Of a DNA stretch of 48,806 nt, positions 1 through 44,040 are shown one piece after another (position 1 is the stretch's first letter; each line of letters begins with the position of its first letter). Both the position numbers and the translations under genes were made by a program. The notes beneath the pieces are model-generated. The model made no database searches. It saw nothing but the letters and a program-made list of their open reading frames with translations, and was not told the DNA's origin. Source of the stretch: Pelosinus propionicus DSM 13327 (GTDB taxonomy: Bacteria; Bacillota; Negativicutes; DSM-13327); assembly GCF_900114615.1 (NCBI RefSeq), contig NZ_FOTS01000039.1, forward strand, positions 1-48,806, written 5' to 3'.

Positions 1-1
1 G

Positions 2-247
2 CTGCAAGCCGCAAGAATGAAGCAAAGCATGTCTAGAGTGGCGCACTGTATTGATAACGGTCCGATGGAAGGTTTTTGGGGCATTCTAAAACGTGAAATG
101 TATTATGGGTACAAATTCACCAGCCGGGAACAGCTTGCGCAAACTATTTCTGACTACATCTACTATTACAATTACCAGCGTTTACAGCGTCGTTTGTCTG
201 TCATGACACCGATGGAGTTCCACCAACAGTACGCAAAGGCTGCATAA
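2..247 (+). CDS. IS3-family transposase (OrfB), C-terminal part, cut by window edge
   Basis: The reading frame is already open at base 2, so this is the 3' end of a longer gene. The visible 81 residues match the end of the IS3/IS150-group DDE integrase: an SMSR block, then IDNGPMEGFWGILKRE containing the catalytic Glu, a Tyr-rich stretch and the closing PMEFHQQ motif. Whether the element is complete cannot be judged. It is followed within 60 bases by a right terminal repeat, so the 3' side looks intact. No cargo gene is linked to it here. Confidence 0.85.
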   Translation: MQAARMKQSMSRVAHCIDNGPMEGFWGILKREMYYGYKFTSREQLAQTISDYIYYYNYQRLQRRLSVMTPMEFHQQYAKAA

Positions 248-303
248 AGAAATGCTGCCCACCATTTCGGTAGACAGCAATCAAATTCTTCTATTTTTTC
301 ATT

Positions 304-324
304 GTCCTCTTGACGGGGTGCACA
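304..324 (+). repeat. Right terminal inverted repeat of the IS3-family element
   Basis: The segment GTCCTCTTGACGGGGTGCAC followed by A has the form of an IS150-group right end and lies 57 bases after the transposase stop. The left end is outside the window, so the inverted partner and target duplication cannot be checked. Confidence 0.6.
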
Positions 325-380
325 GCATTGGGTGAAGAGTTCTATTTACATTAAAATCGTTATTTTTTTCACAAAAAGGA

Positions 381-409
381 TTGTTTTTGCATTAGGGGTA
401 CGATATACT
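381..409 (+). promoter_or_regulatory. Sigma-A-type promoter of the iron alcohol dehydrogenase
   Basis: TTGTTT (381-386) and TATACT (404-409) are separated by 17 bases, about 45 bases upstream of the start codon. It lies outside the IS end, so the gene has its own promoter. Confidence 0.6.
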
Positions 410-453
410 AGCAATATACATAAACTGAAAAATCAGAAAAGGCGGGGATGTAC

Positions 454-1653
454 ATGTGGGGGAAAGAAATTGATTTAGCTCAAATTGTAGAAATTCGGAC
501 TAAAACAACTGTATATTTTGGTATTGGTGCCATTACTAAAATGACCGACATTGCAAAGACTTTATCTGAACAAGGAATTAATAAGGTGGTCGTAGTTACC
601 GGCAGAGGCTCTCATATCAAATCAGGTGCTTGGGAGCATGTGAAAAAAGCATTGGATGCCTTCAATATCCTTCCTGTGTTATATAGTAAAGTTACATCCA
701 ATCCAACTGTTGATCAAGTAGATGAAGCGGCAAGCGCAGCATTGGAATTTGGAGCACAAGCCGTTATTGCTATTGGTGGCGGGAGCCCTATTGATGCAGG
801 AAAAAGCGTGGCAGCTTTAATAGCAAATCCGGGTAAAACGGCACGAGAGCTGTATGAATATACTTTTTTACCAGAAAAGGCAGTACCGATTATTGCTATT
901 AATTTGACTCATGGAACAGGAACAGAGGCCAATCGCTTTGCGGTTGTTAGCATACCCGAGAAAGAATATAAGCCAGTACTTGCTTATGAGTGCTTATATC
1001 CGATGTATTCCATTGACGATCCGGCTCTTATGACTACGCTGCCGCCAGAGCAGACTGCCTATGTATCCGTTGATGCTGTTAATCATGCCATTGAAGCAGC
1101 TACTACGAAGCTAGGCAATGTATATGCTGTAACGTTAGCTCGCGAAGTCATTTCACTGGTTACTCATTACTTGCCATTGGCCCAAGAAGATCCGAAGAAT
1201 TTGGAAGCCCGTTATTATTTAACATACGCTTCAATGATTGCAGGGGCTTCTTTTGATAATGGATTGCTGCACTTTACTCACGCTATGGAGCATCCTTTAA
1301 GTGGTGTGAAGCCTGATTTGCCCCATGGTTCGGGTTTGGGGGTCTTATTGCCTGCAGTAGTAAAACATATATACCCTGCGAAAGCAGCCATTTTAGCGGA
1401 TATTCTGTCACCGATTGTAGCTGGTCTAAAAGGAGAAGCAGCGGAAGCAGAAACGGCATATGCAGGCTTAAAGCAGTGGCTTAAGAAGCATGGAATGAAG
1501 CAAAGCCTGCGGGAAGAAGGATTTGTAGATAGCGATGTAGAACGGCTAACAGATCTTGCTTTTGAAACTCCTAGCTTAGAATTGCTTTTAAGTATGGCGC
1601 CCGTTGAAGGAAATCGGGAAACCGTTGCTGCTATTTACTTGGATTCGCTATAA
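454..1653 (+). CDS. Iron-containing alcohol dehydrogenase
   Basis: NAD(P)-dependent group III (iron) alcohol dehydrogenase, 399 aa, cytoplasmic, interconverting an alcohol and its aldehyde. The N-terminal nucleotide-binding half carries the GGGSPIDAGK signature (residues 108-117). The C-terminal helical half carries the expected metal ligands by comparison with FucO: Asp207, His211, His276 and His291 (SVDAVNH, FTHAMEH, LPHGSG). The spacing between the last two histidines is one residue longer than in FucO. Start: the upstream ATG at 448 touches the ribosome site AAGGCGGGG, whereas ATG 454 sits 6 bases from it, so 454 is chosen. It is a single gene with its own promoter; the substrate cannot be read from sequence. 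Confidence 0.9.
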   Translation: MWGKEIDLAQIVEIRTKTTVYFGIGAITKMTDIAKTLSEQGINKVVVVTGRGSHIKSGAWEHVKKALDAFNILPVLYSKVTSNPTVDQVDEAASAALEFGAQAVIAIGGGSPIDAGKSVAALIANPGKTARELYEYTFLPEKAVPIIAINLTHGTGTEANRFAVVSIPEKEYKPVLAYECLYPMYSIDDPALMTTLPPEQTAYVSVDAVNHAIEAATTKLGNVYAVTLAREVISLVTHYLPLAQEDPKNLEARYYLTYASMIAGASFDNGLLHFTHAMEHPLSGVKPDLPHGSGLGVLLPAVVKHIYPAKAAILADILSPIVAGLKGEAAEAETAYAGLKQWLKKHGMKQSLREEGFVDSDVERLTDLAFETPSLELLLSMAPVEGNRETVAAIYLDSL

Positions 1654-1806
1654 AAAGAATTAAAATAGAATTTTCAGTATGGTAATTTTGCATCTTATCA
1701 ATTCGAAAATGTAATAAATAAAATTTAGAGACTTGTGCATAGTAAAATAAAGTGTTATTATAGAAGCAGTTACCAATATGAATGTTATAAAATTCCATAT
1801 GTTGAG

Positions 1807-1959
1807 ATAGGTGCCCCAAGGGGCTTAATAGGGAAGTCCGGTTTAATGCCGGCGCGGTCCCGCCACTGTAATGAGGAGTGAACCCAAGGTATACCACTGA
1901 GACAATTGTCTTGGGAAGGTTTGGGTAAACGATGAGCCAGAGCCAGGAGAACTGCCTAT
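1807..1959 (+). promoter_or_regulatory. Cobalamin (adenosylcobalamin-type) riboswitch
   Basis: Conserved blocks occur in the right order: a TTAATAGGGAAG block, GCCGGCGCGGTCCCGCCACTG, a GGGAAGG block, and the B12-box region GATGAGCCAGAGCCAGGAGA. The outer P1 helix can close between ATAGG (1807-1811) and CCTAT (1955-1959). The element is complete. A ribosome site GGGAGGGG (1993-2000) and then three terminators follow, but no full gene on this strand. See findings. Confidence 0.92.
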
Positions 1960-2005
1960 TTGACAATCACCGTTTTTTACCCACGAGAGATGGGGAGGGG
2001 ATTAA

Positions 2006-2056
2006 GTGCACCGCAATTTTTGTATGTACTTATATCCTAGCGCAATTTTTCGCTAG
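2006..2056 (+). pseudogene. 16-codon ORF after the cobalamin riboswitch, probable gene remnant or leader peptide
   Basis: A GTG at 2006 lies 5 bases after a strong ribosome site (GGGAGGGG, 1993-2000), where the regulated gene of a cobalamin riboswitch would begin. It encodes only MHRNFCMYLYPSAIFR before a stop at 2054-2056, and the second half lies inside terminator 2034-2065. It may be the stump of a deleted cobalamin-related gene or a short leader peptide; the sequence is too short to assign. Confidence 0.3.
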
Positions 2057-2065
2057 GATTTTTTA
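2034..2065 (+). terminator. Intrinsic terminator 1 after riboswitch
   Basis: Nine-bp stem ATCCTAGCG/CGCTAGGAT with an 8-base loop and a T run. First of three consecutive plus-strand terminators. Confidence 0.8.
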
Positions 2066-2094
2066 TAAGTATAGCTATGATGCTCTTAATTGTT

Positions 2095-2126
2095 TCTCCT
2101 GACCAGCAGTGGTCAGGAGATTTTTT
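2095..2126 (+). terminator. Intrinsic terminator 2 after riboswitch
   Basis: Eleven-bp perfect stem TCTCCTGACCA/TGGTCAGGAGA, loop GCAG, then six T. Confidence 0.85.
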
Positions 2127-2230
2127 ACTTGTTATGTCACTGTTTCGTATCTGGGTACGGAATAGCTAACATATGATCCAAACTTTCATTATCCTTTGCT
2201 ATGTTGTGAGTTGTCTTGGGAAGGGCAGCT

Positions 2231-2258
2231 AAGTTCCGTGAAAACGGAACTTTTTTTT
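2231..2258 (+). terminator. Intrinsic terminator 3 after riboswitch
   Basis: Nine-bp stem AAGTTCCGT/ACGGAACTT with a 4-base loop and eight T on the plus strand. On the minus strand no T run follows, so it does not serve the neighbouring minus-strand gene ending at 2300. Confidence 0.8.
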
Positions 2259-2299
2259 ATTCAAAAGACCTAGCTGTTTCGATCATCATTACTGCAAAA

Positions 2300-4000
2300 T
2301 CAAGAGTTGTCGTTATGCAGTTCCTCATAGCGGAAAACATCTCGATTCGATTGTTCTTGTACGGCAGCTAAATAGGTTTTGTAACCGCCGCTTACATTTT
2401 TTACATTGGTATATTCATTTTGTATGAGTATGCGGTAGGCCAGATATCCTCTTTGCCCTACTTGGCAAAAGAGAATGATTTCTTTATCCTTAGGGATTTC
2501 CTGCATTCTGCTTCGTAGTTCATCCAAAGGAATATTTATGGCTCCTTCGATCGTACCCAGGCAATATTCCTGGGGAGTGCGTACATCGATTAGTAGGACG
2601 TTTGTTTTATTTAACATGCTGATTTCATGCCAATGGATAATTTCATGTTGGCGTTTTAAGATATTCGAGGCAACATAACCTGCCATGTTAACCGGGTCTT
2701 TGGCTGATGAGTAAGGAGGAGCGTAGGATAATTCCAGGCTTTCTAAGTCGTAAACTGTCATGCCGGAACGAATGGCAGTAGCAATTACATCAATTCTTTT
2801 TTCTACTCCCGTATAGCCGATTGCTTGTGCACCGAAAATTCTTCCATCGGTTGGTGAGAAAAGAACTTTTAGGGAGATTGGAGTGGCTCCCCGATAGTAG
2901 CCTGCATGAGATAAAGAGTGAGTATAAGATTTTTCATAGGGGATAGCTAAAATTTTCAACGTTTTTTCGTTATTTCCAGTAGACGATACCGTGAGATCAA
3001 ATACTTTTAGGACAGAGGTTCCCTGGGTACCCCGATATTCATCCTTAATTCCACAAATCGAATTAGCTGCAATTCGTCCTTGCTTATTTGCAGGGCCTGC
3101 CAGAGGAATGAGTGTCGGACTGCCATTCACAAAATCAATAACTTCAATCGCATCTCCCACAGCGTAAATATTAGGATCTGAAGTTCTTAAATGTTTATCG
3201 ACTTGAATGCCGCCCCTTTTTCCGATGATCAGGTTAGCTGTTTTTGCCAATGTGGTATCAGGGGTTACACCAAGACCAAGTAGAATCATATCTGCTTTTA
3301 ATTCTGTTTTCTCATTTAATGAAATGATTGAATAGTGTTTTTCATGCCTTACTGATGTTACGCCATCTTCTAAATAAATTTCCATACCTTTTTCTTTTAA
3401 ATACTGGTGTAGTAAGGCTGCCATCTCAAAGTCAAGGGGACCCATTACTTGGTTTCCCAGCTCTACCAAGGTTACTTTGATACCTCTTTCGATCAGGTTC
3501 TCTGCCAGCTCAATTCCGATGAATCCCCCTCCGACAACAATGGCTCTTTTGGGGTTGTGACGATCAATAAAATCTTTTATTGCGTAGGTGTCAGGAATAT
3601 TTCGCAGTGTAAACACCATATTACCATGTAAGCCAGGGATAGCAGGTTTAATAGGAGTAGCACCCGGAGAAAGAACTAAGGTATCATAGGTCTCTATATA
3701 ATGCGTTTGGTTCTTAAGATCGTGAATCTTGAGCTCTTTTTTTGCAGCATCAATTTCGATAACTTCGCTAAAAATACGTACATCGATATTGAATCGCAGT
3801 TTCATTGCTTCAGGCGTTTGTATAACAAGCTGTTCTTTTTCTTGAATGATTTCTCCGACATAATAAGGTAAACCGCAATTGGCAAATGAAATATATTCGC
3901 CTTTTTCAAATAGGATAATATCCATTTTTTCATTTAAACGTCTTAGACGTGTTGCTGCGCTGGCACCGCCAGCAACACCTCCGATAATGACTACTTTCAT
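2300..4000 (-). CDS. CoA-disulfide / persulfide reductase with C-terminal rhodanese domain
   Basis: FAD- and NAD(P)H-dependent single-cysteine disulfide reductase, 566 aa. Residues 1-450 are the CoA-disulfide reductase fold: N-terminal FAD motif GGVAGGASAA, redox Cys42 in SFANCGLPYYVG, a second nucleotide-binding motif (VVGGGFIGIELAE), and the conserved YAPPYSSAKDPVN near the end of the reductase part. Residues 455-545 form a rhodanese domain with active Cys512 (FCQVGQRG). This fusion is known as CoADR-RHD or NADH-dependent persulfide reductase and acts on CoA disulfide, CoA persulfide or polysulfide. ATG follows AAAAGGAGC. It is monocistronic and divergent from the isochorismatase gene. The physiological substrate, thiol redox balance or sulfur respiration, is not decided by sequence. 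Confidence 0.92.
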   Translation of the reverse strand: MKVVIIGGVAGGASAATRLRRLNEKMDIILFEKGEYISFANCGLPYYVGEIIQEKEQLVIQTPEAMKLRFNIDVRIFSEVIEIDAAKKELKIHDLKNQTHYIETYDTLVLSPGATPIKPAIPGLHGNMVFTLRNIPDTYAIKDFIDRHNPKRAIVVGGGFIGIELAENLIERGIKVTLVELGNQVMGPLDFEMAALLHQYLKEKGMEIYLEDGVTSVRHEKHYSIISLNEKTELKADMILLGLGVTPDTTLAKTANLIIGKRGGIQVDKHLRTSDPNIYAVGDAIEVIDFVNGSPTLIPLAGPANKQGRIAANSICGIKDEYRGTQGTSVLKVFDLTVSSTGNNEKTLKILAIPYEKSYTHSLSHAGYYRGATPISLKVLFSPTDGRIFGAQAIGYTGVEKRIDVIATAIRSGMTVYDLESLELSYAPPYSSAKDPVNMAGYVASNILKRQHEIIHWHEISMLNKTNVLLIDVRTPQEYCLGTIEGAINIPLDELRSRMQEIPKDKEIILFCQVGQRGYLAYRILIQNEYTNVKNVSGGYKTYLAAVQEQSNRDVFRYEELHNDNS

Positions 4001-4293
4001 GTTTGTCAGCTCCTTTTAGATTTCTGTATCTTTCTATACAAAAGGTTAAGATTTTAATACAAGATATAGAAAAGTGTAGAAAATAGTACTGAAAAAGTTT
4101 ACGACTTTTGAAAAGTTGAAGTATTAATGAAGGAGTTATTTCAAATAATAGCTAATATGAGAGTATGATTTTATTTAGAAGCATCATAGATAATGGTTTA
4201 TAGGTATATTGATTATATTGCTGTGGTATCATATTTATTTTTAGTTATAGAATTTAGATCAATCATTTTTAATAAAGAAGAGGGGGAAGAAAT

Positions 4294-4830
4294 ATGCGTT
4301 TGGAAAAGGAAAAATCTCAATTTTTAATGGTGGATGTGCAAGAAAAACTGTTTCCGTATATTGTTGGCGGTGAGCTTATCGTTAAGAAAATAATAACTCT
4401 TATAGAAGGGCTAAAAGCTTTAGAGGTTCCGATCATGGCAGCTCAGCAATATCCGAAAGGATTGGGAAACACAATTGAACAATTGCGTCCCTATTTTTCA
4501 AATTATCATGATAAAACCACATTTAGCTGCTGCGGCAATGAAGCCTTAGTCAAGGAACTTCATGAGCGGAACAGCAAAAATGTTATCATCGCAGGAATTG
4601 AAGCTCATATTTGTGTACTGCAGACAGTAGTTGACTTAAAATCTCTTGGATTTCAGCCAATTGTGTGTGCAGATGCTGTGGGGTCTCGTGCCAGAAGTGA
4701 TTATGAAATCGCATTGGAGCGAATGAAATATGAAGGTGCTATTCTTACTACCGTAGAATCCATTTTATTTGAACTTTGCTACCAGGCAGGTTCCGATGCA
4801 TTTAGGACGATCTCACGGCTAGTAAAGTAA
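4294..4830 (+). CDS. Isochorismatase-family cysteine hydrolase
   Basis: 178-aa cysteine hydrolase of the isochorismatase/nicotinamidase superfamily. The catalytic triad is visible as Asp14 (MVDVQE), Lys74 (HDKTTF) and Cys107 (GIEAHICVLQTV). Length and spacing match the stand-alone hydrolases of the YcaC type, so a role in siderophore synthesis is not implied. An AGAGGGGG ribosome site precedes the ATG. The gene ends against a bidirectional terminator shared with the convergent LysR gene. Substrate unknown. Confidence 0.88.
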   Translation: MRLEKEKSQFLMVDVQEKLFPYIVGGELIVKKIITLIEGLKALEVPIMAAQQYPKGLGNTIEQLRPYFSNYHDKTTFSCCGNEALVKELHERNSKNVIIAGIEAHICVLQTVVDLKSLGFQPIVCADAVGSRARSDYEIALERMKYEGAILTTVESILFELCYQAGSDAFRTISRLVK

Positions 4831-4841
4831 TAGGGTTTGTA

Positions 4842-4880
4842 AAAATGCCTATTTCCATCTCTGAGGAAATAGGCATTTTT
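4842..4880. terminator. Bidirectional terminator between convergent genes
   Basis: Fifteen-bp perfect stem (4842-4856 with 4865-4879) flanked by A run and T run, so it works in both directions. It touches the stop codon of the minus-strand LysR gene. Confidence 0.85.
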
Positions 4881-5773
4881 TAGTTAAGTACACGGGACTG
4901 AAGGTACGACAGAAAAGTCTGAGTAGCAATGGATAACGTTTTTTTCTTATTGTAGATAATGCCGACCGTTCTGGTGGGCATAGGTGGTGATATAGGAATT
5001 TCAATGAGACTTCCTTCGGAAAGATCTTTCTCAATAAAGTTTCGAATCGCAACGGTAATACCCAGTCCGATTTTAGCAAACTCAATAAGAAAATCCATCG
5101 TATTGATTTCTACTTCTGGTTTGATAAAAATATTATTTTCTAATAAAAATTGATCTACATATTGTCTTGTAATATTATCTGATTCCAAGAGCATAAAGAT
5201 ACCTTTTGAAAAGATATCATTCGGTGCTAGAATTTGCAATGAGTTCAAATACTCCTTTTCGGCAACAAAAATGTCTTGGATATCGGCTAATTTAACAAAG
5301 GTATAAGGAGTAATGTTAAAGGGGCGGCTAACGATGCCGAAATCAATCATTCCCTGATCAATGTTTCTGAGGGTATCAAAGGTTGTGTTATTCATGATCT
5401 TGATTTTTATTTCAGGATATTGTTTCATAAAGGGCTTAAGGTGTGATAAAAGAAAATGCTTGCATAGCACGGTACTGACACCTATGGTAATCATGCCTTG
5501 TTTTTTACTCTTAAGTTCGGTTAATATATTTTCACCATCCGCAATAATATGAAACGCTTTTTGAATATATTCATAGAAAATTTTGCCTTCCGCAGTAAGA
5601 GTAACTCCTTTGGAACCACGAGAAAATAATTTAACGTCTAGGAGAGTTTCTAGCTTTTTGATAGATTTACTAACGGCTGGCTGGCTTATATATAAGGATT
5701 CTGCTGCATGAGAAATATTTTTGTAAAAGGCCACTGTATGAAAAATTTTATAAAGTGCTAAATCTTCCTGCAT
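4880..5773 (-). CDS. LysR-family transcriptional regulator
   Basis: 297 aa. An N-terminal winged helix-turn-helix (about residues 5-65: AAESLYISQPAVSKSIKKLE, then KLFSRGSKGVTLT) is followed by a periplasmic-binding-protein-like effector domain. It is transcribed divergently from the tandem dehydratase array at 5913, with only 139 bases between. A 7-bp inverted repeat at 5790-5809 lies in that gap, a classic arrangement for a LysR regulator that represses itself and activates the divergent operon. The inducer is unknown; by context it is a substrate or product of the dehydratases. Confidence 0.9.
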   Translation of the reverse strand: MQEDLALYKIFHTVAFYKNISHAAESLYISQPAVSKSIKKLETLLDVKLFSRGSKGVTLTAEGKIFYEYIQKAFHIIADGENILTELKSKKQGMITIGVSTVLCKHFLLSHLKPFMKQYPEIKIKIMNNTTFDTLRNIDQGMIDFGIVSRPFNITPYTFVKLADIQDIFVAEKEYLNSLQILAPNDIFSKGIFMLLESDNITRQYVDQFLLENNIFIKPEVEINTMDFLIEFAKIGLGITVAIRNFIEKDLSEGSLIEIPISPPMPTRTVGIIYNKKKTLSIATQTFLSYLQSRVLN

Positions 5774-5912: not shown

Positions 5913-6404
5913 ATGATAAACGTGATTACAGGGAAGGTATGGAAGTTTGGGAATGATGTAGATACGGATCAGATTATTCCATCTCAGTATTTGCTGCTGC
6001 CTAATGTTGAGGAAATGAAGCAGTATACATTTGAGCCTTTGGATGAAAATTTTGCTTCGACTGTATGTCCAGGTGATATTATCGTAGGGGGCGAAAACTT
6101 TGGATCAGGGTCCTCACGGGAGCAGGCTCCATTAGTGTTAAAAGCTCTGGGAGTAAGTGCTGTAGTAGCGAAGTCCTTTGCCAGGATCTTTTTTAGAAAT
6201 GCTATTAATATTGGCTTGCCGGTTGTGATCTGCAAAGAGGTATATGATGCAGTCGAACAAAAAGATACATTGGAAATTGATGTTTTAAAAGGTACGATTA
6301 AAAATGTTACAAAGGATCAGAATTTTACCTCGACAAAACTTCCTGCGCATGTAATGAATATTTTAGAAGCAGGCGGTTTAATCGGTTTTTTAAATAAAAA
6401 GTAA
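5913..6404 (+). CDS. Aconitase-family dehydratase small subunit A (LeuD/DmdB-like)
   Basis: 163 aa swivel-domain subunit of a two-subunit [4Fe-4S] hydro-lyase. Family motifs: DVDTDQIIPSQYLLL (about 15-30), GENFGSGSSREQAP (65-79) and AKSFARIFFRNAINIGLP (90-107). The segment after QYL, which helps set substrate choice in isopropylmalate and homoaconitate enzymes, reads LLPN and does not match a set I recognise. It lies 14 bases before its large subunit. No leuA or leuB is nearby, so leucine synthesis is not indicated. Citramalate, methylmalate or dimethylmaleate hydration are possible alternatives. Confidence 0.85.
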   Translation: MINVITGKVWKFGNDVDTDQIIPSQYLLLPNVEEMKQYTFEPLDENFASTVCPGDIIVGGENFGSGSSREQAPLVLKALGVSAVVAKSFARIFFRNAINIGLPVVICKEVYDAVEQKDTLEIDVLKGTIKNVTKDQNFTSTKLPAHVMNILEAGGLIGFLNKK

Positions 6405-6418
6405 GGGAGGTACTCATA

Positions 6419-7675
6419 ATGGGAATGACAATGGGAGAAAAAATCTTGGCCAGAGCCAGCGGTAAGGAGTTTGTGAAGCCAGGAGAGATCATTACAGCAA
6501 AAGTTGACTTATGCATGAGTAACGATGGTACAACCCATTTGAATATTGATATATTTGAAAAGCAGCTGAAAGCAGAAAAGGTGTTTGATCCTAAAAAAGT
6601 GATTTTTATTGTAGATCATAACGTTCCTTCAGAGAGTGCAAAAACGGCTCAGGTACACAAAAAAATGCGAATATTTGCGCAAAAACATGAGATTCCCTTT
6701 TATGAAGGTACAGGAGTCTGTCATCAGATTATGATAGAGGATTTCGTTGTACCAGGACAGCTGGTTATTGCTGCTGATTCTCATACCTGTTCTTATGGTG
6801 GTTTGGGTGCCTTTGGTACAGGGGTCGGCTGTACAGATTTTACTTCCGTCATGAATACGGGAGAAATTTGGTTAATGGTTCCGGAAACGTTAAAGTTTGA
6901 AATTGAGGGCAGCTTCAAGGCAGGAGTATATGCCAGGGATCTGATTTTAAAGATCATTGGTGATATTGGAGCGAATGGAGCAAATTATAGAATTATGGAA
7001 TTTGGCGGTCCAGCAGTGAAGAATTTTACGGTTGATGATCGAGTTGTGCTGTGTAATATGGCTGTAGAAGCAGGGGCAAAAACAGGTCTTGTTGAGGCGG
7101 ATCAAATTGCGATCGACTATGTTAAGACTAGAGGACGTCATGACATGAACCTATATACAAGCGATGAAGATGCAGTGTATGAAAACACATATCAATATAG
7201 CCTTGATGAATTGGAGCCGATGATTGCCATTCCGCATTGTGTCGATGATGTAGTAGGCGTAACCCAGATTGGGGAAGTGAAAATCGATCAGGGCTTTATT
7301 GGTTCCTGCAATAATGGCAGGATCGAGGAGCTGCGTGCTGCAGCGCAAATTCTGCAGGGAAAGAAGATTGATCCTTATGTGAAACTATTGATTTCACCTG
7401 CGTCCAAAGCAGTATATTTAGAGGCATTAGCAGAAGGATTGATTGATATCTTTGTAGAAAGCGGCGCTATGGTGCTGAATCCTAATTGCAGTGTTTGCTG
7501 GGGAAGCTGCCAGGGGGTAATTGGTGAGGGCGAAACCCTGATTTCTACTGGAACTAGAAACTTCAAGGGCAGAGCAGGCCATCCCAATTCGAGTGTTTAT
7601 CTTGCTTCTGCGGCAACAGTGGCAGCTTCTGCTCTTACAGGAAAAATAACCGACCCTAGGGGGTTTGTGGTATGA
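6419..7675 (+). CDS. Aconitase-family dehydratase large subunit A (LeuC/DmdA-like)
   Basis: 418 aa catalytic subunit of a hydratase/isomerase. Cluster ligands are visible at Cys297 (IGSCNNGR; the usual motif is GSCTNGR), Cys357 and Cys360 (NPNCSVCWGSC). Other family motifs are GTGVCHQIM (97-105), the AADSHTCSYG block (118-127) and GSCNNGR. A strong GGGAGG ribosome site precedes the ATG. Its stop overlaps the start of small subunit B (ATGA), so the two pairs are translationally coupled. It is a clear paralogue of large subunit B but diverged, notably around the cluster. Confidence 0.87.
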   Translation: MGMTMGEKILARASGKEFVKPGEIITAKVDLCMSNDGTTHLNIDIFEKQLKAEKVFDPKKVIFIVDHNVPSESAKTAQVHKKMRIFAQKHEIPFYEGTGVCHQIMIEDFVVPGQLVIAADSHTCSYGGLGAFGTGVGCTDFTSVMNTGEIWLMVPETLKFEIEGSFKAGVYARDLILKIIGDIGANGANYRIMEFGGPAVKNFTVDDRVVLCNMAVEAGAKTGLVEADQIAIDYVKTRGRHDMNLYTSDEDAVYENTYQYSLDELEPMIAIPHCVDDVVGVTQIGEVKIDQGFIGSCNNGRIEELRAAAQILQGKKIDPYVKLLISPASKAVYLEALAEGLIDIFVESGAMVLNPNCSVCWGSCQGVIGEGETLISTGTRNFKGRAGHPNSSVYLASAATVAASALTGKITDPRGFVV

Positions 7676-8166
7676 AAGAAGCTTTTAAAGGGCGAGTGTG
7701 GAAACTGGGGGATGATATAGATACAGATATTATTATTCCAACACAGTTTCTTGCCTTAAAGACTGTAGAAGATATGAAAAAATATGCATTTAACCCGCTA
7801 AGACCGGAGCTTGCAGCGCAAATTCAGCCAGGAGATATCATTGTGGCAGGTAAAAATTTTGGCTGCGGCTCGTCTCGGGAGCAGGCTCCTGAGATCTTGG
7901 CAGCTTTGAAGATAAGCTGCATTATTGCCAAGTCCTATGCTAGAATTTTCTACCGCAATGCATTTAATAATGGTTTATTGCTGCTTGAAAATAATGAGCT
8001 GTATGATTGCTGCAGGGAAGGGGATGAGGTCTCTGTTCAGTTAGAAAACAGCCAAGTCTTGCTAGGAGAAAAATCTTTTGAGGTGGCATCCATTCCAACG
8101 GATTTATTGCAGATGGTAGAGGCGGGAGGATTAGTTCCTTTTATGAGAAAGCGCAATGGCAAATAA
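7672..8166 (+). CDS. Aconitase-family dehydratase small subunit B (LeuD/DmdB-like)
   Basis: 164 aa paralogue of the small subunit at 5913, with matching blocks DDIDTDIIIPTQFL, GKNFGCGSSREQAP and AKSYARIFYRNAFNNG. The substrate loop differs from copy A (FLALKT against YLLLPN), suggesting the two pairs are not redundant. The start overlaps the preceding stop by 4 bases. It belongs to the LysR-controlled operon. Confidence 0.86.
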   Translation: MKEAFKGRVWKLGDDIDTDIIIPTQFLALKTVEDMKKYAFNPLRPELAAQIQPGDIIVAGKNFGCGSSREQAPEILAALKISCIIAKSYARIFYRNAFNNGLLLLENNELYDCCREGDEVSVQLENSQVLLGEKSFEVASIPTDLLQMVEAGGLVPFMRKRNGK

Positions 8167-8189
8167 ATTTGCTGGAAAGGAAGTGCAAT

Positions 8190-9443
8190 ATGGGTTATAC
8201 GCTAGCTGAAAAAATAATCATGAGAAATACAAAAAGAAGTTCCGTTACAGCCGGGGAATTGCTCAATGTGAATGTGGATAAGGTCATGGTTCATGATATC
8301 TTTGCTCCCTTTGTTGTTGAAAAATTTAGAGAGATGGGTTTTGAAAAAGTTTGGAATCCGGATAAAATCGTATTTGTCTATGATCATTTGGTTCCCACTA
8401 GTTTTATTGAAGATTTTCGCCATCATAAAATAGCAGATGCCTTTGCTGCGGAGCAGCATATCAAGGCGGTTCATCGTGCAGATGGGGTCTGCCATCAATT
8501 AATGCCTGAGTTACGTTATGTAGTTCCCGGTCAAGTAGTCTTTGGGACAGATTCCCATACTACAACCTATGGTGCCATTGGTTCTTTCTCAACTGGGATT
8601 GGATATACGGAGATGGCAGCGATTTTTGGTACGGGACAATTGTGGATTAAGGTTCCGCCGACTCTTAAGTTTACTATTGATGGCGAGCTGCCGAATGGTG
8701 TTTATTCTAAAGATATCATTCTTAGGATACTTGGTGATATTGGTGCTGATGGCGGTACGTATAAAGCGCTGGAATTTGGCGGTTCTACCATCAAAGGATT
8801 GAGTATATCTTCCAGAATGACTCTTTCCAATATGGCAGTAGAAGCGGGAGCCAAGGTTGGGCTGATTGAGCCTGATGAGAAGACTTTTGCTTTTAGCGGT
8901 GTAGAGGGCAGCCAATTCCAAGATCTTAAGAGTGATCCAGATGCCAATTATGAAAAAGTATTTCATTATGATGCTTCCAATTTTAAGCCTGTGGTTGCAT
9001 GTCCATCTAATGTGGATAACATCAGTGATGTAGAAGCACTGTTAGGAACAAAAATTGATCAAGGATTCATCGGTTCCTGTACCAATGGCAGGTTTGAAGA
9101 TTTAGAAGTAGCTGCCAAGATCCTAAAGGGGCGAAAGATAGCTCCTTTTACGAAATTAATTGTTACACCTGCAAGCCGGAGTATTTATGCAGAAGCTGCA
9201 AAGGCAGGTATTATTGGAATTTTAGTGGAAGCCGGAGCGATTATGAATCCGCCAGCTTGTGGCTTATGCTGCGGCAGGAGCGGTGGGATCGTATCGGATG
9301 GTGAGCGGGTAATCGCCACGAATAATCGTAATTTCTTAGGACGAATGGGCAGTCCGAAGTCGGAAATTTTTCTCGCCTCTCCAGCAACCGTTGCTGCAGC
9401 GGCTTTAGAAGGCAAGATCGTTGATCCAAGAAAGTATTTATAA
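8190..9443 (+). CDS. Aconitase-family dehydratase large subunit B (LeuC/DmdA-like)
   Basis: 417 aa. Cluster ligands are Cys297 (IGSCTNGR), Cys357 and Cys360 (PPACGLCCGRSGG). GADGVCHQLM-like and FGTDSHTTTYGAIGSF blocks are typical of the isopropylmalate/homoaconitate/dimethylmaleate group. The frame could open at TTG 8169, but GGAAAGGAAG lies 6-8 bases before ATG 8190, which is chosen. This is the last gene of the four-subunit operon and is followed by a strong terminator. The reaction is reversible hydration of a substituted malate or maleate; the exact substrate is unresolved. Confidence 0.87.
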   Translation: MGYTLAEKIIMRNTKRSSVTAGELLNVNVDKVMVHDIFAPFVVEKFREMGFEKVWNPDKIVFVYDHLVPTSFIEDFRHHKIADAFAAEQHIKAVHRADGVCHQLMPELRYVVPGQVVFGTDSHTTTYGAIGSFSTGIGYTEMAAIFGTGQLWIKVPPTLKFTIDGELPNGVYSKDIILRILGDIGADGGTYKALEFGGSTIKGLSISSRMTLSNMAVEAGAKVGLIEPDEKTFAFSGVEGSQFQDLKSDPDANYEKVFHYDASNFKPVVACPSNVDNISDVEALLGTKIDQGFIGSCTNGRFEDLEVAAKILKGRKIAPFTKLIVTPASRSIYAEAAKAGIIGILVEAGAIMNPPACGLCCGRSGGIVSDGERVIATNNRNFLGRMGSPKSEIFLASPATVAAAALEGKIVDPRKYL

Positions 9444-42276: not shown

Positions 42277-43132
42277 TTTTGTCAGCCTCCTCCTCTAGGA
42301 CTTTGCTCAATTGTGCGATTGCTTCTTCCTCTGTATGCCAAGAAGCAAATTGTCTTGCTGTAAGCTCTTCTATCATGAGTTTTAACTGCCATAAGGGCGG
42401 TATCGCTTCTGTAAATATTTGTTTTGCTGCCATGTAGCTAAGCACTTTTTCAGGGGTACCATTGAAAATTAATTGACCGTTTTCTAATAAAATAAATTGA
42501 TCTGCATAGGGGAGGACGGTGGCAATATCATGTTCAACGACCAGTATTGTGATACCATGTTCCTTATTTAAATCACTCAGGAGTTTATATAATGAGTGGG
42601 TTCCTTCAGGATCTAGGGCGGAAGTTGGTTCGTCGAGAACAAGAATTTTTGGGTTGGTCGCTAGAACACTGGCAAGGACCAGACGTTGTTTCTGTCCTCC
42701 GGATAAATCCGTAACGGCTTGTTTCTCATATCCTGTCAAACCAACTTTGTCGAGAACCTCTTCGACTCTGTGCGTAATTTCTTGGGGAGCAATGCCCATG
42801 TTTTCAAGGCTAAAGGCAACTTCTTCTTCCACTGTCATGGTCACTAATTGCGTTTCATAATCTTGTAAAACAGTACCAACTGTGAGTGACAATTGCTGCA
42901 TAGAAGATTCTTTTGTATGAATTCCAGTAACGTAAACTTTTCCGGCAGAACTTCCGCCAAAGTAATGGGGAACGGCTCCTGCTACTGCTAGGCAAAGTGT
43001 TGTTTTTCCTGCCCCGCTTGGACCTAATATAACAGAAAAGGATCCTGTTTCAATGGAAAGCGTTATATTGTCAAGAACCTTTTTGGGATGATTGTAGGCG
43101 TAGCTGAAGTTTTGCAGGGTTATGGCTGGCAT
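42269..43132 (-). CDS. ECF transporter ATP-binding subunit
   Basis: 287 aa ABC ATPase: Walker A GPSGAGKTT, Q-loop LQDYETQL, signature LSGGQKQR, Walker B ILVLDEPTSALD, H-loop VEHD. With the next gene it forms the heterodimeric ATPase of the ECF module. Its start overlaps the last base of the S-component gene. Confidence 0.9.
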   Translation of the reverse strand: MPAITLQNFSYAYNHPKKVLDNITLSIETGSFSVILGPSGAGKTTLCLAVAGAVPHYFGGSSAGKVYVTGIHTKESSMQQLSLTVGTVLQDYETQLVTMTVEEEVAFSLENMGIAPQEITHRVEEVLDKVGLTGYEKQAVTDLSGGQKQRLVLASVLATNPKILVLDEPTSALDPEGTHSLYKLLSDLNKEHGITILVVEHDIATVLPYADQFILLENGQLIFNGTPEKVLSYMAAKQIFTEAIPPLWQLKLMIEELTARQFASWHTEEEAIAQLSKVLEEEADKNA

Positions 43133-43701
43133 TATTGATCACCTTTCAAGTCAAATAATTTTTTTGCGGGGAAATACAAGATCTGCGTGATGGCGGCATT
43201 GGCAGCAGCGACTGTAAATACGACAGGTATCATAGCGTATAGATACACAGACAAAGGTAGAGAAAGTACAACTTTGAGTATGGTGATGAATGTCATGCCG
43301 CTAGCTACGGTGCTGATAAAGCCTGTTACGGCAGGCTTTATGTTGAGCTTGCCTAATGTCATATTAAAAGTGTGGCAGACGAGTAATGTACATATAATAG
43401 CACCAATGGGTTCACTCAATAGATTGCCGTAAGGAAAAGCGGACTTAGAAGTTGGTATATTAATAGCTGCAGCAACTAGACCGATGCCGAAAGATTGTTT
43501 AAGAGTAGGTTTGGTTAAATTAATAGCAATACAATACATGGCAATGGTCCAGTTAGGAGTTACGCCGCCAATATTTGGACTGACTAAATGCAAAATGGCA
43601 CCAATCGCCAGAAGTAAGGTTGTAATCGTAACCCAGCGATAGCGGCCGCCTTTATTTTTATCATGGATGGTTAATTCGGATTCATTTTTTTCTAATTCCA
43701 T
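43132..43701 (-). CDS. ECF S-component, probable tryptophan transporter (TrpP-like)
   Basis: 189 aa with five or six hydrophobic segments; the layout (TLLLAIGAILHLVSP, then NWTIAMYCIAI, then NIPTSKSAFPYGNLL) resembles the TrpP/S-component group. The T-box leader in front reads a UGG specifier, making tryptophan the probable substrate. It is followed without gaps by both ATPases and EcfT, so the transporter does not rely on a shared ECF module. GGAG precedes the ATG. Confidence 0.72.
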   Translation of the reverse strand: MELEKNESELTIHDKNKGGRYRWVTITTLLLAIGAILHLVSPNIGGVTPNWTIAMYCIAINLTKPTLKQSFGIGLVAAAINIPTSKSAFPYGNLLSEPIGAIICTLLVCHTFNMTLGKLNIKPAVTGFISTVASGMTFITILKVVLSLPLSVYLYAMIPVVFTVAAANAAITQILYFPAKKLFDLKGDQ

Positions 43702-43728: not shown

Positions 43729-44022
43729 TAAAAAAACCTCGTCTCTATACATGCATGTGCATATATAGGGACGAGGAGTTAACTCGCGGTGCCACCCTGA
43801 TTAGCTTTTAAAAAAGCTCAGCTTTACAAGATACAGGACAAAGTACAATCCGATATCTGCTTCCTGATAACGGCGGAAGAATCCCGACAGTGCCTACCCC
43901 GTACTACGGATCAGACTGTATCTCCCAGGCCCATTCCACATACCGAGTAGTGCCAAACTTCCACTGCCATTGGCTCGCTGTGACCCTTTGTGTATTGTGT
44001 ACTCTTCCTGTTCATCGATAAT
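43729..44022 (-). promoter_or_regulatory. T-box riboswitch, tryptophan type
   Basis: Read on the minus strand: a Stem I region, then the antiterminator T-box AGGGTGGCACCGCG (43785-43798), then a terminator hairpin built on CCTCGTC/GACGAGG (43738-43774) with a T run. In the Stem I specifier loop GAA is followed by TGG, so the specifier reads Trp. Low charged tRNA-Trp would open expression of the ECF transporter. Confidence 0.9.
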
Positions 44023-44040
44023 GAATATGTATTTTAACGT

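Follow-up and report, generated by a model that had tools for sequence, protein, structure and literature searches.

A cobalamin riboswitch followed by a conserved noncoding module rather than a gene in Pelosinus propionicus

The window analysed here is a stretch of 48,806 nucleotides from Pelosinus propionicus DSM 13327 (contig NZ_FOTS01000039.1), and near its left end it carries a cobalamin riboswitch aptamer on the plus strand (Table 1). The covariance model RF00174 matches it over model positions 1–189 of 189 and above the gathering score of 31.5 bits, which places the aptamer in that family and agrees with the first-pass annotation, where the riboswitch was described as intact and as controlling no visible gene. 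From the aptamer to the final terminator, T3, there are three plus-strand terminators and no genes, and a convergent gene on the opposite strand ends at 2300. The best matches of that gene are CoA-disulfide reductase models, below their curated cut-offs. Downstream of the aptamer, an Rfam search gave six further matches at E 0.12 to 2.6, each scoring far under the gathering score of its family. In the following, the aptamer, the first two terminators (T1 and T2) and a 132-nt module ending in T3 are together called the block.

Table 1. Features of the block and its putative promoter in the window.
Feature	Position	Strand	Basis
Promoter-like TTGTGC, 17 nt, TATTAT	1733–1761	+	Pattern search
Cobalamin riboswitch aptamer	1792–1973	+	RF00174, 113.2 bits, full length
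P13-like hairpin (CCCA / TGGG)	1980–1994	+	Consensus fold, invariant in 9 genomes
Purine strand GGGGAGGGGATTAAGTGC, predicted antiterminator of T1 and T2	1992–2009	+	Minimum-energy folds of cut RNA
Terminator T1 with T-tract	2034–2065	+	Hairpin 2034–2059; both-sided changes in 5/8 stem pairs, 9 genomes
Purine-strand partner, extending into 5' arm of T2	2082–2099	+	Cut-RNA folds
Terminator T2 with T-tract	2095–2126	+	Hairpin 2095–2120; both-sided changes in 3/9 pairs, 14 genomes
Conserved noncoding output module (hairpin C, linker, hairpin D, T3)	2127–2258	+	Conservation, model R1
Hairpin C, outer TATGT/ACATA, inner CTGTTTCGTA/TACGGAATAG	2133–2173	+	98% of cells paired
Linker with conserved CAAACTTTCATTAT	2174–2208	+	Mostly unpaired in module-alone folds
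Hairpin D	2209–2230	+	Module-alone folds, 10/10 family genomes
Terminator T3, unbroken T-tract	2231–2258	+	Hairpin 2231–2252; both-sided changes in 5/9 pairs

A ribosome-site-like sequence, GGGGAGGGG, is present at 1992–2000, as had been reported. The 16-codon open reading frame described with it also exists (GTG start at 2006), but it is not conserved: in the 10 genomes of the family the corresponding frames have 16, 11, 11, 11, 11, 14, 23, 23 and 14 codons, and the tenth genome has no start. A small-protein gene was sought among plus-strand starts shared by at least 6 of the 10 genomes, none of which was of constant length and sequence, and the 132-nt module has no conserved reading frame. 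Elsewhere in the window, the 3' end of an ORF that looks transposase-like by eye lies at the edge (1–247, plus strand), and 5913–9443 (plus strand) holds two successive small/large subunit pairs of the aconitase/isopropylmalate dehydratase family, the second pair named by eye. A T-box leader (43764–44024, minus strand, 103.6 bits) precedes a gene (43132–43701) whose product has a TrpP tryptophan-transporter domain, and the genes after that one are ABC transporter-like by eye.

The window's genome carries 21 cobalamin aptamers in total, 19 of which have a plus-strand ORF of at least 90 aa no more than 1.5 kb downstream (greedy non-overlapping ORFs). The two without such an ORF are the one in the window and L038, the middle member of a tandem triple. 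Nine of the 21 aptamers lie in tandem sets whose starts are 296 to 499 bases apart; these are on contigs C70 (the one triple, L037–L039), C73 (L030/L024 and L033/L034) and C69 (L040/L036). Other cobalamin leaders of this genome have two terminator-like hairpins by eye (e.g., L025, L031 and L035). A different cobalamin riboswitch (L029, on C73), with two terminator-like hairpins by eye, precedes a methylmalonyl-CoA mutase-like gene.

Upstream of the aptamer, the pattern TTGT[GC/AT]-N17-TAT[T/C]AT was found in 8/8 genomes of the genus, at a nearly constant distance from the block, and TTGACA-N17-TAT[T/C]AT in three of the four genomes of another family that carry the block, counts that were made without a shuffled control and for a promoter that the general signal scan of the window does not include. 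The pattern search found neither form in G008 and G043, and the contig of G009 starts only at the aptamer. From the pattern we infer a transcription start near 1768.

A scan for hairpin terminators on both strands of 1–5000 found four, against a mean of 3.9 in shuffled sequences, so that the scan alone does about as well as chance. The T1, T2 and T3 hairpins are instead taken as real because they are conserved, because their stems covary, and because the fold of 1974–2258 is far more stable than those of shuffled sequences (z −6.7, 0 of 200 shuffles as good); the three plus-strand terminators of the first-pass annotation are thus upheld. Alternative pairings were modelled on RNA that begins at 1970, and so excludes the aptamer, and that stops immediately ahead of the 3' arm of T1 or of T2. 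In the shorter RNA, the purine strand pairs with the 5' arm of T1 in nine of the 10 family genomes, the exception being G008, whose T1 is altered. In the longer RNA, it pairs with 2082–2099, including the 5' arm of T2, in all 10. A consensus fold of nine of the 10 family genomes (G003 was left out) keeps the purine-strand helix with 2082–2090 throughout, with one-sided changes only, and in this fold the GGG of the purine strand doubles as the 3' side of the P13-like hairpin, a hairpin that is absent from the window's own minimum-energy folds. In the full fold of 1974–2258 most of the long purine-strand helix coexists with T2, so only the end of the helix competes with that terminator. These alternative folds fit a predicted OFF switch that would work through two consecutive terminators, T1 and T2; T3 alone resembles a true end. 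Similar parts are described for leaders (btuB2, mutA) of Sporomusa ovata and Veillonella parvula, which have a cobalamin aptamer with a P13 stem-loop, from which the name is taken (PMC9600662). In that study, corrinoids repressed 38 of 86 reporters; a predicted terminator was present in 37 of these, and 12 of them came from S. ovata and V. parvula (PMC9600662). The block shares with those leaders the aptamer, a P13-like stem-loop and a predicted terminator, and differs from them, as far as their descriptions there go, in its extra conserved module, its third terminator and, in the window, the lack of a gene.

Across the 10 family genomes, the module taken by itself folds into hairpins C and D, separated by a linker that stays largely single-stranded, and then T3. 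In folds of 2072–2258, hairpin D is kept in only four of 10 and replaced by another pairing in the other six, and it is present in the window's fold of 1974–2258. Of the cells in the module and T2 hairpins, 98.4% are paired in an alignment of 14 genomes (12 distinct rows), against 34–51% in slid controls; both-sided changes affect 13 of 34 pairs (T2 included) against 6.2 in shuffles, with 32 double-change cells against 8.4, although the alignment was fitted to the structure model and is therefore biased towards it. In hairpin C, five of the 11 inner pairs show both-sided changes, while the five outer pairs are nearly invariant and hence uninformative. The linker is shortened in G005 and G006. 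A pattern search of the window's genome for a target, using a 14-nt complement of the linker, found the block itself only; across eight genomes there were 10 matches, six in blocks and four elsewhere (two in G006, two in G002), and the reversed control pattern gave one. By eye, the linker might pair with GGGAAGGTTTGG of the aptamer in the family, a pairing seemingly not kept in the other family. Some 14 bases (TTGTCTTGGGAAGG) are common to the aptamer (1908–1921) and hairpin D (2212–2225) by eye; this repeat is not kept in G008 and G009 and is probably due to chance.

The block recurs as a whole in relatives. In a DNA search of 60 of them, the matches of all seven genus mates (96, 96, 96, 95, 86, 84 and 83%) span the aptamer through T3, as do those of two genomes of a second genus in the family (80 and 74%). 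A covariance model of 2072–2258 (R1) found one strong copy in each of the 10 family genomes, and matched 19 of 380 genomes of the class under stricter filters that miss weak matches. Four of the matches outside the family (G043, G050, G017 and G034, all of one other family) stand directly behind an RF00174 aptamer and have the same parts in diverged form. Five weak matches (G181, G237, G313, G318 and G374; E 2e-4 to 1e-3) were left out of the count; that of G313 is behind an aptamer but has, by eye, no hairpin C. A second, weak match in G008 (L092, G008:C56:2984–3122, E 3e-5) lies behind another cobalamin aptamer and was excluded from the 14 as an apparent partial copy whose contig ends soon after. 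By eye it lacks hairpin C and retains the CTTTCATTATCC linker motif together with a T3-like hairpin whose T-tract is broken, a hint that the linker matters most.

Comparison with relatives for a gene after the riboswitch, as had been proposed, had a divided outcome. A cobalamin-related gene follows T3 in eight of the 14 genomes, starting 67 to 465 bases 3' of it: cbiK in four (G005, G006, G009 and G043) and methylmalonyl-CoA mutase in the other four (G050, G017, G034 and, behind a second aptamer, G008). The four cbiK products match the NCBIfam cobaltochelatase model at E 3e-62 or better, yet under its cut-off, and those of G005 and G006 pass the cut-off of PF06180; the four mutase products pass the NCBIfam cut-off for the mutase N-terminal domain and not those for the whole protein. 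In the window's genome (G000) and in five relatives (G001, G002, G003, G004 and G007), inspection by eye of the ORFs within 6 kb found no cobalamin-related gene after the block. In the T3 regions, likewise read by eye, the T-tract is unbroken in all six of these geneless genomes and interrupted by C in all eight with a gene. This pattern suits a leaky leader terminator that has become a firm RNA end, although few lineages are involved and the correlation may go back to just one or two events among them.

Sequence conservation was compared between geneless genomes. Only one of the 132 bases of the module differs between the window and each of G001, G003, G004 and G007, whereas the fourfold degenerate sites of the upstream alcohol dehydrogenase gene differ at 66/177, 71/176, 72/177 and 72/176 positions in the same four comparisons. 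The corresponding differences are 5–6 of 167–168 bases in the aptamer and 6–8 of 121–122 in 2005–2126 (T1 and T2), and the upstream spacer (1654–1759) is fairly conserved too, with 12–17 of 104–106. Over 2005–2258, 7 of 253 bases are changed relative to G001, G004 and G007; the 9 of 214 obtained for G003 in one alignment is a partial count, the G003 sequence being shortened there. Similarity ends at T3, as the following 33–41 aligned bases differ at 49–68%. With the G001 counts, the module is more conserved than the fourfold sites (Fisher, 6e-20) and the upstream spacer (7e-5), and not significantly more so than the aptamer (0.14) or 2005–2126 (0.06). The large subunit gene of the aconitase family differs from that of G004 at only 43 of 179 fourfold sites, which makes the dehydrogenase a fast yardstick, but the contrast with the module is still large. 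Against the more distant geneless G002, the module differs at 10 of 131 bases and the fourfold sites of another gene at 85 of 165, near saturation, while the gene-bearing pair G005/G006 is less constrained (module 6/128, fourfold sites 32/122). By fourfold sites, G002 and G005/G006 are about equally distant from the window. On these comparisons the block left without a gene is under strong purifying selection; a short recombination tract between close genomes could mimic such conservation.

Since relatives carry cbiK or a mutase gene after the same block, a gene was probably lost in the window's lineage, and the simplest history is loss in Pelosinus, once or twice. To this extent the first-pass idea of a deletion scar holds, but what remains is under strong selection. 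A functionless leftover leader of a deleted cbiK-like gene would suit both the genes behind the block in relatives and the two cbiK genes that the window's genome has elsewhere, on C69; it is nevertheless rather improbable in view of the unbroken T-tract of T3 and of a module and 2005–2258 segment that hardly change, against about 40% of the fourfold sites in the adjacent gene. Nor is the block likely to be a cis-acting leader that still controls something nearby, such as a more distant plus-strand gene. The T-tract of T3 is broken in gene-bearing genomes as in a leaky leader, and the next plus-strand gene of known kind is about 380 bases after the block in G003 and about 540 in G001, but the flanks on both sides vary among genomes, and in the window the reductase on the opposite strand separates the block from the next such gene (at 4294, with an isochorismatase domain). 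In the eight genomes where the block does precede a cobalamin-related gene, it may be a cis leader.

To our knowledge, riboswitches that control a noncoding RNA are few, with EutX/Rli55 and AspocR the standard cases. EutX of Enterococcus faecalis and Rli55 of Listeria monocytogenes are described as having a cobalamin aptamer before a noncoding RNA that is truncated by the ligand, and as being encoded with eut genes (PMC6317780). The block resembles them, as described there, in having an aptamer before a noncoding RNA and no gene before the final terminator; it differs in having its own output module, with two terminators ahead of it, and in lying outside the eut region (the block is on contig C27, and EutBC with the regulator on C59, contigs that are unordered). 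A decoy of this type would bind the antiterminator EutV, whose ANTAR dual-hairpin target has hexaloops with A1 and G4 (PMC3369931). In the window's genome, genes for a histidine kinase and for EutB/EutC do lie next to that of an ANTAR response regulator, and the eut region has A1/G4 hexaloop hairpins. Such a role is highly improbable for the block, however, since 1769–2262 contains no A-N-N-G-N-N hexaloop hairpin of at least three pairs, and across the 10 blocks a single hairpin of this type was found, in G002, and no dual hairpin; the scan for pairs found none even in the genome's own eut region, so that the positive control applies to the single-hairpin scan. AspocR of L. monocytogenes is described as a 1,400-nt noncoding RNA antisense to pocR and controlled through termination by a cobalamin riboswitch (PMC8079631). 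A cobalamin riboswitch with a noncoding RNA and predicted control by termination is common to both, but the RNA proposed here would end at its own T3, about 490 nt from the inferred start, and would not overlap the opposite gene, provided that T3 terminates. Antisense control of the CoA-disulfide reductase, suggested earlier on the AspocR model, is accordingly hard to credit: the convergent gene has its 3' end at 2300, but T3 ends at 2258, 41 bases short of it, and no such gene stands beside the block in G001, G003, G008 and G009 (ORFs within 6 kb, by eye). The first-pass annotation was correct to hold the three terminators against antisense read-through, but T1 and T2 appear to belong to the switch and only T3 to be a true end.

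The interval thus appears to encode a functional regulatory RNA gated by B12 and not to be the relic of a gene deletion, and among the three readings offered by the first-pass annotation the source of a B12-dependent small RNA has the best support. We give a probability of about 0.68 to a stand-alone B12-gated noncoding RNA gene, which would be transcribed, would respond to the ligand and would act in trans, as the explanation of the block, its conservation, covariation, genomic contexts and predicted folds. RNA polymerase would start near 1768. With a corrinoid bound, the aptamer would hold P13 and so occupy the purine strand, T1 and T2 would form, and short RNAs of about 300 and 360 nt would result. 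When corrinoids are scarce, the purine strand would pair with the arm of T1 first and with that of T2 next, so that both terminators fail and the polymerase reads on through the structured 132-nt module as far as T3, for a transcript of about 490 nt. This module would be the product, its conserved linker or its hairpins acting in trans on an RNA or a protein. Such an RNA would probably descend from the long leader of a cobalamin-related gene since lost (cbiK in the nearest gene-bearing relatives).

Open-access titles and abstract openings, among the matches listed, mention no cobalamin riboswitch before a noncoding RNA in Pelosinus or Sporomusa. We suggest, tentatively and at somewhat less than even odds, that the block represents a new family of B12-gated trans-acting RNA, in which the long multi-terminator leader of a cobalamin-related gene outlived that gene, acquired a firmer last terminator and retained the structured 132-nt module as its product, and in which one purine strand would block two terminators successively. 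If this is true, relatives at both stages, with the gene behind the leader and without it, would document the conversion of a leader into a regulatory RNA, and there would be an extra RNA layer in the cobalamin control of a genome that has 21 such aptamers.
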